Positions 30,174-33,836 of a DNA stretch of 64,000 bases are shown here, piece after piece. Within the stretch, counting starts at the first letter, position 1. The number at the start of each line of letters is the position of its first letter. Position numbers and translations under genes: made by a program. The notes beneath the pieces are model-generated. The model searched no databases. It was not told where the DNA came from and saw nothing but the letters and a program-made list of their open reading frames with translations. This DNA comes from Psychroflexus torquis ATCC 700755 (lineage in GTDB: Bacteria > Bacteroidota > Bacteroidia > Flavobacteriales > Flavobacteriaceae), in contig NC_018721.1 of assembly GCF_000153485.2 (NCBI RefSeq), forward strand, positions 2,356,001-2,420,000, written 5' to 3'.

Positions 30174-33100
30174 ATGGCATACGATTTTAAAGCAATAGAA
30201 ACCAAATGGCAGAAGCGTTGGGCGAAAGACCAAACCTTTAGAGCGAAACAACCTCAGGAGTTTGAAGGAGACCCTAAACCTCCATTTTATGTGTTGGATA
30301 TGTTTCCTTATCCGTCTGGAGCAGGACTTCATGTTGGCCACCCGCTAGGGTATATTGCCAGCGACATCTATGCCCGCTACAAAAGACATAAAGGGTTTAA
30401 TGTGCTGCACCCACAAGGTTATGATTCTTTTGGGCTTCCTGCAGAGCAGTATGCTATTCAAACTGGTCAACATCCATCATCAACAACTGAAATTAATATT
30501 GAAGGGTGTTTAGATAACAAAGGGAAAATATTAGACAAATATGTAAAAGATAATGGCAAGATTAAGAATTCAGCTCTTATCGATAAATCTAAGGAAACGA
30601 GTGTTGATGAAGAGAATTATCAAAGGAATATAATTAAAGGGTATCGTAAACAACTCGATAAAATCGGATTTTCTTTCGATTGGAGTCGGGAAGTCCGTAC
30701 CAGTAATCCAGATTATTATAAATGGACCCAGTGGATATTTATTCAACTCTTTGAAAGCTGGTATGATGCCAAAGCTCAAAAATCCAAGTCTATACCAGAA
30801 TTAGTCAATATTTTCGAAAAAGAGGGAAATACGAATGTGGACGCAGTGGCAGATGATAACACAACTTCATTTTCCGCATTAGAATGGTCAGCTTTTACCG
30901 ATGACCAAAAAGAAGAACTGCTACTCAATTACCGCTTAACTTATCTTGCTGAAACTGAAGTCAATTGGTGTCCAGCCCTAGGTACGGTCTTGGCCAATGA
31001 TGAAATTGTGAAGGGGGTTTCAGAACGAGGAGGACATCCTGTGTCCAGAAAAAAGATGAAGCAGTGGAGCATGCGTATTTCTGCGTTTGCAGATCGTCTA
31101 CTTAGTGGACTTGAAGATTTAGACTGGAGCGAAAGCCTAAAAGAAACCCAACGCAACTGGATTGGAAAATCGGTGGGAGCGCAACTTGAATTCCCCATCC
31201 TGTCCTTCCCCAAAGGGGAAGAGAACACTAAGCCAGGCTACATGACAGGTGGAAATAATGCTCACACCCTTATTGAAAAGGCAAAAGAAAATAGAAATCA
31301 ACCAACTGAGGCTGAAAAAACACTTTGGATACAACTTCGAGCTAAAAAGTTATCGGGATATAAGTTTCGACAGCAACATTTAATCGGAGATTATATTACA
31401 GACTTTGTCTGTTTATCAAAATCTTTGGTCGTTGAAGTCGATGGAGAATATCATAATGAAACCAAAGCCTATGACGAAGAACGAACACAATTTTTAAATA
31501 AAAAAGGCTTTGAAGTTATTCGATTTAAAAACGAAGAAGTCATTGGAAATATAGATGAAGTTCTCGATCAAATCAAAACCAAACTTGATCAATTACCTTC
31601 CTATGATAAGATGGCGAAGCCATCTGAAGAGAGTAAAGTTAAACCCCTTTCCTTGGGAGAGGGGCAGGGGGAGAGGATTGAGACCTTCACCACCCGACCT
31701 GATACTATTTATGGTGTTTCTTTCATCACCTTAGCTCCTGAGCATGATTTGGTATCTAAAATAACAACTCCTGAGCAAAAAGAAGAAGTAGAGGCTTATG
31801 TAAAAGCTTCCGCAAAGCGAAGCGAGAGAGAACGTATGGCAGATGTTAAAACCATTTCTGGTGTTTTTACCGGGGCTTATGCCGAGCATCCTCTTACTAA
31901 AGAACCCCTTCAAATTTGGATTGGAGATTATGTCCTAGCAGGTTATGGCACAGGAGCTGTTATGGCTGTCCCTTGTGGTGACCAACGGGATCATGATTTT
32001 GCTCAACATTTCGGAATTCCTATTCCCAACGTGTTTGAAGGCATTGATGTTTCTAAAGAAGCCTACACAGATAAATCTAATGCGACAAAAATCGCTAATT
32101 CTGACTTTCTGAATGGTCTGGGCGTTTTGGAAGCGATCCCCAAAGCGATTGAAGCTCTGGCCAACATGGGCCAAGGGGCTGAAAAGATAAATTATAGACT
32201 AAGAGACGCCGTCTTTTCTAGACAGCGGTATTGGGGAGAGCCTTTTCCTGTCTATTACATCAATGGCTTACCAAAAATGATAGAGAGCAAATACTTGCCT
32301 TTAGAATTGCCTGAGGTCGAAAAATACCTTCCTACAGAAGATGGAGCTCCACCTTTGGGAAGAGCACAAGACTGGGCTTGGGATACTGAGCAGAATCAAG
32401 TGGTCTCAAACGCCAAGATAGATCATAAAACAGTATTTCCATTGGAATTGAACACCATGCCTGGATGGGCAGGAAGTTCTTGGTACTTGTTTCACTATAT
32501 GGAAACCGAAAACCGCGATCAACACATCGCTTCCAAAGAGAACTTAGACTATTGGAACAATGTTGACTTGTATATTGGAGGGAGCGAGCACGCCACTGGG
32601 CATTTGTTATATTCTAGATTCTGGACCAAATTCCTAAACGACAAAGGAGTACTTCCAGTAGACGAGCCTTTTAAAAAATTGATTAATCAAGGAATGATCT
32701 TAGGGGAGAGTGCTTTTGTTTATAGAGTCAATTATGAACCAGATTTCTCTTGGCATTCAAAAGATAATTCGACTTCAACAAAAAAATCCTTTGCAATAAA
32801 ACCCGTATTCTTATCAAGTGATCTAAAAAAATCTCTTAGTGATTTAGAGATTGAAGAATTAGTAAAGAAAGAACTATTACAATATTATATAGATTTAATT
32901 GGAAGTAATGAATTTTATATTTCATCATTAAACCTTACAACTATTACACCAATCCACGTTGACGTCTCATTAGTCAACTCGTCTAATGAATTAGATATTG
33001 AAGGTTTAAAAAATTGGCGTTCAGAATTTAGTGAAGCTGAATTCATTTTAAAAAACGGAGAGCTTTACGACCCAATCTCCTCCCCTTCGGGGAGGTCGGG

Positions 33101-33836
33101 AGGGGATTCATTTATTGTAGCTCGAGAAGTCGAAAAAATGTCAAAATCCAAATTCAATGTGGTCAATCCAGATGATATCTGTGAAGACTTTGGAGCCGAC
33201 AGTTTGAGACTCTACGAAATGTTTTTAGGACCACTTGAACAAGCAAAGCCCTGGAGTACTGCTGGACTGTCTGGGGTGCATAATTTCTTAAAAAAACTTT
33301 GGAAATTGTATTTTACCTCTAATTCACTCCAAGAGGGAAAACAGGATTTCGTCGTTTCTGATGAACCTGCTTCGAAGGAATCTTTAAAAATTCTGCATAA
33401 GACCATTAAGAAAGTCACTCAAGATATCGAAGAGTTTAGCTTCAACACGTCAGTCTCTACGTTTATGATTTGCGTGAATGAGTTGACTCAGCAAAATTGT
33501 AAGTCTCGAGAGGTCTTAGAACCTCTAGCAGTATTGATTTCACCATATGCTCCTCATATCGCTGAAGAGTTATGGGAACTTTTAGGCAACACCACTAGTA
33601 TTTCTGAAGTGGATTATCCTGTTTTTGAAGAACACTACTTGAAAGAAGATTCTAAAACGTATCCTATTTCTTTTAATGGAAAGATGAGGTTTACACTAGA
33701 ATTGTCTTTGGACTTAAGCAAAGATGAGATCGAAAAAATAGTAATGGCCGATGAGCGCACACAGAAACAACTGGACGGGCGCACTCCTAAAAAAGTGATT
33801 ATCGTGCCCGGTAAGATCGTTAATATTGTGGGGTAG
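30174..33836 (+). CDS. leuS: Leucyl-tRNA synthetase with nested DUF559 nuclease domain
   Basis: 1220 residues, about 250 more than usual for the group. The LeuRS core is intact: HVGH (53-56), the editing-domain TFTTRPDTIYG (505-515) and GTGAVMAVPCGDQRDHDFA, and KMSKS (988-992). Extra material sits in at least three places. Residues about 110-155 interrupt the usual TTE.NI.RYR.QLDKIGF segment. Residues about 344-500 hold a DUF559 (VSR-like endonuclease) domain with D410, E421, D423 and H427 in its active-site pattern. Residues about 855-924 are a lengthened loop, and 969-974 encode a perfect DNA palindrome. The frame is open throughout, so the protein is probably still made and essential. Confidence 0.93.
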   Translation: MAYDFKAIETKWQKRWAKDQTFRAKQPQEFEGDPKPPFYVLDMFPYPSGAGLHVGHPLGYIASDIYARYKRHKGFNVLHPQGYDSFGLPAEQYAIQTGQHPSSTTEINIEGCLDNKGKILDKYVKDNGKIKNSALIDKSKETSVDEENYQRNIIKGYRKQLDKIGFSFDWSREVRTSNPDYYKWTQWIFIQLFESWYDAKAQKSKSIPELVNIFEKEGNTNVDAVADDNTTSFSALEWSAFTDDQKEELLLNYRLTYLAETEVNWCPALGTVLANDEIVKGVSERGGHPVSRKKMKQWSMRISAFADRLLSGLEDLDWSESLKETQRNWIGKSVGAQLEFPILSFPKGEENTKPGYMTGGNNAHTLIEKAKENRNQPTEAEKTLWIQLRAKKLSGYKFRQQHLIGDYITDFVCLSKSLVVEVDGEYHNETKAYDEERTQFLNKKGFEVIRFKNEEVIGNIDEVLDQIKTKLDQLPSYDKMAKPSEESKVKPLSLGEGQGERIETFTTRPDTIYGVSFITLAPEHDLVSKITTPEQKEEVEAYVKASAKRSERERMADVKTISGVFTGAYAEHPLTKEPLQIWIGDYVLAGYGTGAVMAVPCGDQRDHDFAQHFGIPIPNVFEGIDVSKEAYTDKSNATKIANSDFLNGLGVLEAIPKAIEALANMGQGAEKINYRLRDAVFSRQRYWGEPFPVYYINGLPKMIESKYLPLELPEVEKYLPTEDGAPPLGRAQDWAWDTEQNQVVSNAKIDHKTVFPLELNTMPGWAGSSWYLFHYMETENRDQHIASKENLDYWNNVDLYIGGSEHATGHLLYSRFWTKFLNDKGVLPVDEPFKKLINQGMILGESAFVYRVNYEPDFSWHSKDNSTSTKKSFAIKPVFLSSDLKKSLSDLEIEELVKKELLQYYIDLIGSNEFYISSLNLTTITPIHVDVSLVNSSNELDIEGLKNWRSEFSEAEFILKNGELYDPISSPSGRSGGDSFIVAREVEKMSKSKFNVVNPDDICEDFGADSLRLYEMFLGPLEQAKPWSTAGLSGVHNFLKKLWKLYFTSNSLQEGKQDFVVSDEPASKESLKILHKTIKKVTQDIEEFSFNTSVSTFMICVNELTQQNCKSREVLEPLAVLISPYAPHIAEELWELLGNTTSISEVDYPVFEEHYLKEDSKTYPISFNGKMRFTLELSLDLSKDEIEKIVMADERTQKQLDGRTPKKVIIVPGKIVNIVG
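31205..31221. repeat. Perfect palindrome inside leuS, left of the DUF559 insert
   Basis: CTTCCCC and GGGGAAG separated by AAA, translated in frame as part of LSFPKGEE. It marks the left border of the nuclease-domain insertion. An imperfect counterpart (CCCCTTTCC ... AGAGGGG, 31644-31664) marks the right border. Confidence 0.7.
33079..33095. repeat. Perfect palindrome inside leuS, before KMSKS
   Basis: CCTCCCC and GGGGAGG around a TTC loop, translated in frame as part of SSPSGRSGG just upstream of the VAREVEKMSKS motif. It belongs to the same GC-rich palindrome type as that at 31205. Confidence 0.7.

Follow-up and report, generated by a model that had tools for sequence, protein, structure and literature searches.

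The leucyl-tRNA synthetase (LeuRS) gene of Psychroflexus torquis ATCC 700755 carries a DUF559 nuclease within its own reading frame. This insert is probably a mobile, homing-type nuclease element that remains in the host enzyme and is not spliced out, as far as can be judged from its sequence. The nesting, the sporadic presence, the lateral movement of the insert in three pairs and the retention of active-site residues are evident from the comparisons given below; DNA cutting and the mode of movement we infer. The window analyzed here, a stretch of 64,000 nucleotides, comprises bases 2356001-2420000 of the one-contig 4.32-Mb genome (G000 in the genome labels).

A nuclease in the reading frame of leuS

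The product of leuS scores well over the TIGR00396 cut-off (854.9 vs 548.4 bits) and accounts for the one LeuRS editing-domain match in the genome. A sequence-only reading of the window had placed a nuclease insert at 31200-31673, and comparison with empty relatives sets its borders within six bases of that proposal (Table 1). Where the insert stands, empty relatives have an 8-residue loop (KIQNSKFL in L070, in the context GAQLKF-KIQNSKFL-IEAF), and the host frame picks up again at 31677 (IETFTTRPDT). The insert consists, in order, of a GC-rich palindrome, a linker, a complete DUF559 nuclease, a second linker and a second GC-rich palindrome. The nuclease matches PF04480 with an E-value of 2.5e-37 (127.5 bits vs a curated cut-off of 20.6), and a search of the genome for further DUF559 copies, as the sequence-only reading had proposed, returned this one match at E 0.001; related copies lie in other genes of relatives.

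Table 1. Features of leuS and its insert (window positions)
Feature	Position	Strand	Remarks and basis
leuS, leucyl-tRNA synthetase, host gene	30174..33836	+	1220 aa including the insert; single LeuRS found in the genome
Left GC-rich palindromic end unit CCCCATCCTGTCCTTCCCCAAAGGGGAAG	31193..31221	-	sequence
Whole in-frame insert, aa 341-501	31194..31676	+	161 residues; sequence vs empty relatives
N-terminal extension TKPGYMTGGNNAHTLI	31227..31274	+	lineage motif Y-x-T; alignment of 48 copies
DUF559 (PF04480) nuclease domain, aa 368-471	31275..31586	+	putative active site D410/E421/D423; profile match, alignment, model
Right GC-rich palindromic end unit CCCCTTTCCTTGGGAGAGGGGCAGGGGGAGAGG	31644..31676	+	left-unit pattern inverted; match between the two weak in this copy; sequence
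Solo palindromic unit without nuclease, in frame (SPSGRSGG)	33080..33105	+	in the variable stretch before KMSKS of leuS; pattern search

Homing elements are either lodged in a self-splicing intron or intein or free-standing, and the leuS insert is neither. No splicing or intein domain was found among Pfam matches to the LeuRS protein up to E 1, and no Rfam family was found in 31000-31900 up to E 0.1. Together with the continuous LeuRS frame, these results led us to reject an intron or an intein, and the insert apparently stays unspliced in the protein. An internal start of the nuclease was also considered and rejected, since the Met of YMTGG is missing from the aligned IleRS- and MetH-nested copies. 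Elsewhere in the protein, the stretch from MILGESAF to KMSKS (aa 841-992, 32694-33149) varies from 80 to 172 residues among the genus species compared.

Two relatives have a LeuRS frame that is broken after or within the nested nuclease (L357 in G654 and L042 in G112), which is what an assembly or gene-calling artefact might leave behind. For the arrangement as a whole such an artefact is scarcely conceivable, as the frame is continuous in a one-contig genome and the same arrangement recurs in five of 24 genus species and in many named genomes.

Conservation and predicted structure of the nuclease

An alignment of 48 relatives has 14 invariant columns, including D410, E421 and D423 (window numbering), the residues that the sequence-only reading had considered a plausible active site. 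D410 and E421 are kept in all 166 copies of the lineage described below and D423 in 164, a conservation that partly reflects how the set was selected, as most of the 166 copies are profile hits. These three residues are probably catalytic. Both exceptions to D423 (L043 in G113 and L045 in G002) are nested in LeuRS, are without H427, stand together on a long branch and have translated flanks without palindrome peptides. They look like fossils, i.e., apparently dead nucleases still in place, a reading made from single cases.

The closest solved structures by sequence profile are 3hrl and 3r3p (E 2.6e-7 for the latter), of which 3r3p is the catalytic domain of the homing endonuclease I-Bth0305I. 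The modelled insert (mean pLDDT 86) bears out the complete DUF559 fold that had been claimed for it: 3hrl (E 3.7e-8) and 3r3p (E 1.4e-4, TM 0.76 over the target) are its only fold matches under E 0.001, and Vsr (1vsr) follows at E 0.053. Thus, both the common fold, as modelled, and the conserved acidic residues expected of EDxHD/Vsr-like PD-(D/E)XK nucleases are found in the insert. A model of LeuRS aa 262-700 is of moderate quality (mean pLDDT 69.9, pTM 0.52) and has LeuRS structures as its best fold matches; it shows the nuclease as a separate domain, with most blocks at pLDDT 76-93, one at 55 and both linkers below 50, that bridges two strands where the editing domain begins. To judge by Ka/Ks of the whole insert in two LeuRS pairs (~0.25 and ~0.23), the insert is under purifying selection, with its function kept.

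Sporadic presence in LeuRS and IleRS

A search for both DUF559 and LeuRS covered 27 species of the genus, of which 24 gave a LeuRS match. The insert is present in five of these LeuRS (G000, G201, G174, G200 and G219), and 18 have an ordinary, host-like loop without a nuclease, with 16 residues between the anchors in 17 of them and a loop of the same length seen in sequence comparison in the 18th (L088). The LeuRS of G208 (L083) holds a remnant with the left unit and without the nuclease, frame kept. This single case seems to be the scar of a lost nuclease; alternatively, it may be a solo unit that never held one.

On a host DNA tree of 23 of the 24 genus LeuRS, presence of the insert needs four changes, also at the 5% and 95% points of 200 bootstrap trees, and it clusters no more than shuffled labels. 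The five carriers are rejected as a single clade (AU p 6e-70). An insert both ancestral and universal in the clade, which the sequence-only reading had named as the outcome that would tell against it, is therefore not what the genus presents. A wider tree of 121 LeuRS (129 parsed minus eight duplicates, loci with an unparsed motif not being entered) requires 14 changes, of which starred branches force eight; nested LeuRS were over-represented in it on purpose, so that 19/121 is not a frequency. For IleRS in the genus, DUF559 is nested in four species (L457-L460), the loop has 17 residues in 16 and 13 residues in one, and three of 24 were not parsed.

The empty-site comparison, which covers LeuRS and IleRS, indicates that the element takes the place of ~8-12 host loop residues and is no clean addition, and no target duplication was seen at the insertion sites of either enzyme. 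Both features fit recombination better than simple transposition. Conservation beside the insertion sites looks high, with anchor motifs picked by eye, and is only average to the left of LeuRS site 1; we take it as a hint. By length, the LeuRS loop holds 20-55 residues without a nuclease in 28 of the 121 LeuRS (e.g., L168, L224, L239 and L240), and several of these long empty loops contain recurring strings (VIASEAKQS, MLKQVQHD..SELDSES). Thus, the loop that the nuclease element uses may be a general landing place.

One nuclease lineage in many host genes

DUF559 matches occur in 89 of 199 genomes of the family; for the phylum sample the figure is 222 of 395. A tree of 115 DUF559 domains, made without seven duplicate loci and eight fragments or weak hits, sets 52 nested copies apart from 31 standalone copies, which were taken from best hits and are not a random draw, and from 32 other nested or fused ones. 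The hosts of the 52-copy group are LeuRS, IleRS, MetH, RecG, IcmF, HisD and four other frames. Its support is SH-aLRT 98 in a quick tree, and bootstrap 96 and SH-aLRT 79 in a careful tree whose bootstrap had not settled; the trees rest on 108-122 columns and have many open forks.

A lineage profile built from the alignment of 48 rows found, in 395 genomes of the class, 81 matches of at least 137 bits, a line set after the list was seen; for 78 of them the frame measures at least 359 aa. L357, the LeuRS with its frame broken after the insert, is among the three shorter ones. Under 137 bits, the matches listed are mostly short frames that lack the N-terminal extension. Among the best 80 of 569 named relatives, 75 are in frames of at least 260 aa, and every title names an organism that we take to belong to Bacteroidota; relatives beyond these 80 may belong to other phyla.

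The sorted set of 166 copies leaves out ten double loci, chosen by eye, and all matches under 137 bits (e.g., L307, L373 and L376). It comprises 158 copies in frame inside or fused to host proteins, two in long unassigned frames and six in short frames. The 158 fall into 25 gene families with 34 host-site labels: LeuRS 58 (two sites), MetH 30, IleRS 17, RecG 14, acetate-CoA ligase 7, RecB-like helicases 4, three each in RecJ, MetRS and UvrA, two each in IcmF, MutS and a SiaA-like phosphatase, and one each in 13 further families, some of them fusions at one end (e.g., HisD, guanylate kinase, RluA-like). Host identity rests on profile scans of thirty lineage proteins, to which the remainder were assigned by blastp; the RecB-like, SiaA-like, CaiB-like and RluA-like hosts are under curated cut-offs and the M23 label was given by eye. 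On the lineage tree, copies with the same host label group strongly together (49 changes vs a shuffled mean of 121.9), which implies that a lineage holds to one site in different species and seldom passes to another gene.

This range of hosts bears on the possibility that hosts keep the nuclease as a domesticated domain for a useful function in the fused enzyme, such as DNA tethering, repair or phage defence. Such a role would agree with the signs of purifying selection in the insert and with the repair enzymes among the hosts (RecG, RecJ, MutS, UvrA, RecB-like). A DUF559 protein of Caulobacter, VsrA, is described in the part of PMC12907096 available to us as needed for the DNA-damage response in cells that lack a methyltransferase. 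We nevertheless regard domestication as quite improbable, because the hosts share no common pathway (tRNA synthetases, MetH, AcsA, AroC, guanylate kinase and GH31 are among them), presence is sporadic among close species and, in the three pairs treated below, the insert moved without the host gene.

DUF559 domains outside the nested lineage are likewise joined in frame to other proteins. HsdR, HsdM and an Eco57I-type methylase contain one internally, and HemD, HemF, HisF, RNase H and a PLP enzyme bear one N-terminally (loci L154, L120, L119, L005, L143, L133, L146 and L041). A further DUF559-type nuclease lies inside a frame that looks intein-like by eye and ends in VVVHNC (L044:2366-4516, G125).

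Movement of the insert without its host gene

Synonymous differences of insert and host were compared in 299 same-host pairs, and the 22 with the largest insert deficit were examined individually. The insert is far less diverged than its host in the IleRS pair G208/G210 (0.08 vs 0.62, p 3e-16), the LeuRS pair G174/G200 (0.13 vs 0.44, p 1e-6) and the RecG pair G304/G502 (0.03 vs 0.30, p 1e-6); the p values are uncorrected for the 299 pairs and small enough to survive correction. In these three shallow pairs, from three host genes, synonymous divergence of the insert is thus three to ten times lower than that of the host gene, from which we conclude that the insert moved between species without the host gene. 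All three show the insert passing laterally into the same site independently of its host gene, as expected of a homing element. The LeuRS hosts of the near-identical G174/G200 inserts are also rejected as sisters (AU p 0.0006).

In each of the three pairs, a comparison along the gene shows DNA identity going up at the insert. In the IleRS pair the rise clearly takes in part of the flanks as well, ~150 bases of the left one and ~50 of the right one; in the LeuRS pair it is one-sided, with ~100 bases on the left; in the RecG pair it is weak and not clear, the flanks being alike anyway. The window's nearest pair, G000/G201, is shallow too and shows insert and host alike (insert Ks 0.26 vs host 0.22-0.65). 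This pair looks vertical on these values, which speaks against synonymous sites of the insert being inherently slow to change and indicates that not every pair is lateral.

An old vertical insert with many losses and no active movement would account for the same site in many genera, for the equal divergence of insert and host in G000/G201 and for the scar-like remnant L083, which suggests that loss happens. It is very improbable all the same. The synonymous difference of the insert lies far under that of the host in three pairs and three genes, and to explain this by descent would need a codon-level constraint on the insert, of which G000/G201 shows none. Repeated deletions would also not restore the ordinary loops of 18 of the 24 genus LeuRS, 17 of them with the same 16 residues.

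No close carrier of the element was found among viral contigs, plasmids and phages. The best match in viral contigs (80 loci) is 53% identical, and all matches in plasmids (40 records) and phages (3 records) are below 60%.

Palindromic ends and solo units

The GC-rich flanks noted in the sequence-only reading are real: GC content is 0.54 in the left end and 0.68 in the right end, compared with 0.33 in the DUF559 core and 0.35 in the window. Inverted flank scores of at least 30 were obtained for 32 of 75 named nested loci and 14 of 52 in the first set, compared with 4 of 31 standalone copies and with none of 71 and none of 52 control stretches taken 400 bases further out; direct-repeat scores reach 30 in 7/75 and 3/52. 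The two ends of one element match each other better than ends of different elements do (28.7 vs 20.0, permutation sd 0.54, n = 127, base composition uncorrected). The ends of the window's own element match weakly when inverted (score 16 vs a shuffled mean of 14.3). In Bacteroidales, some copies of the nested lineage lie in short frames (L289, L298, L303, L307 and L312), and the strong inverted flanks of four of these five indicate that the cassette can exist outside longer genes.

Similar solo units stand at the same leuS place in the LeuRS of G174 and G211. Across the 27 genus genomes the solo-unit pattern has 38 matches vs 2 for a reversed control, and a separate stretch of G174 (C2:51929-52056) holds four palindromic units in tandem with a 34-base period. 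The window's own genome was scanned with the left-end pattern, allowing up to 3 mismatches, and with the solo-unit pattern, allowing up to 2; each occurs once, the latter inside leuS.

The main rival explanation is drawn from these units. In it, a Y1 (RAYT/IS200-like) transposase moves palindromic units in trans, as with REP sequences, and the DUF559 gene is cargo whose nuclease is idle in movement. Y1_Tnp matches are indeed at hand, with 13 in the window's own genome and presence in 24 of 27 genus genomes, and solo units without a nuclease exist, one of them in frame in the same leuS, as do the four tandem units of G174. Passenger status is unlikely, though, since the two patterns searched in the window's own genome were each found once, in leuS, in place of the many dispersed copies of an amplified REP, and since neither the active site kept in 164 of 166 copies nor the loyalty to one site across genera is explained by it.

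Discussion

The explanation that we prefer is a homing-type element made of a pair of GC-rich palindromic units around a DUF559 (Vsr-like/EDxHD) nuclease with its own N-terminal extension, the nuclease being shown by the host enzyme as an extra domain on two flexible linkers. The nuclease would cut or nick an allele of the same gene that lacks the insert, and repair from an allele that has it would then copy the element with some flank. Rare errors would bring the element to new genes, perhaps aided by the palindromic ends. Once the active site is dead, the domain would erode in place, where it would stay because removal must preserve the frame of a needed enzyme.

In the sequence-only reading the insert had been called a selfish or stray nuclease, protected from loss by its place in an essential enzyme. 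Selfishness agrees with the lateral movement in three pairs and with kin in 24 other gene families; the word stray does not suit a lineage that is mostly nested. Protection is borne out in part by L043 and L045, apparently dead yet in place, and is limited by L083, which seems to have lost the nuclease with the frame kept.

Inteins with homing endonucleases are likewise nested in frame in conserved genes and are found at one site across many species. The leuS insert shares both features with them; it differs in that no splicing domain was matched in LeuRS and the sequence gives no sign that the insert leaves the protein. REPINs are GC-rich palindromic units paired in inverted orientation, and the element is like REP/REPIN and RAYT systems in its inverted pairs of such units. 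Unlike them, it has a nuclease between the units, and the two unit patterns searched are found once each in the window's own genome. Free-standing Vsr and VsrA-type DUF559 proteins belong to the same Pfam family, and Vsr is a weak fold match. Those are separate genes, whereas the nested lineage stands apart in the tree, has the N-terminal extension and lies mostly inside another gene.

DUF559 is named as a homing family of EDxHD type in the accessible portion of PMC9403480. As far as the excerpt of PMC3943268 goes, EDxHD enzymes are homing endonucleases of group I introns, occur mostly in phages and have long DNA-binding regions. The lineage of the leuS insert resembles these enzymes (I-Bth0305I, 3r3p) in a catalytic domain related by profile and fold and in behaving as a site-loyal mobile nuclease gene. 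It is unlike them in that no intron or intein was found for the leuS insert, whose nuclease is in the host-enzyme reading frame, and in that no added DNA-binding module is seen in it. Rickettsia palindromic elements (RPE) are palindromic DNA lodged in frame in unrelated genes and co-translated, by the published description available in part (PMC10969869), and in this they resemble the present element. They are ~150 bp long and no nuclease is mentioned in that part of the description, whereas the leuS element has a nuclease frame of ~360 bp between its units. Solo units such as the one before KMSKS (Table 1) look closer to RPE than the nuclease element does.

In the open-licence literature we found no description of nested DUF559 elements. 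Parts are known already; their combination in a nuclease lineage that is nested unspliced in, or fused to, 25 protein families was not found there. We see evenly balanced grounds for and against a separate class of mobile element in Bacteroidota. Such a class would be an unspliced in-frame homing cassette in tolerated loops beside conserved motifs of housekeeping enzymes, with the host frame replacing its own promoter and start. It would use homing to reach other species, change host genes from time to time and leave solo units and fossils behind, and at least 25 protein families would have gained nuclease domains from it.

The usual view is that a homing nuclease inside a needed gene depends on self-splicing. 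This lineage seems to manage without splicing, lodged as it is in loops where an extra domain is tolerated. If this is true, homing elements would have a further way of lodging, and the DUF559 domains found in unrelated enzymes would be accounted for. The lineage would also provide a natural set of permissive insertion sites, and how selfish DNA turns into a protein domain would become testable. Nesting of this kind appears to be a means of keeping mobile DNA in genes that are hard for the host to lose.
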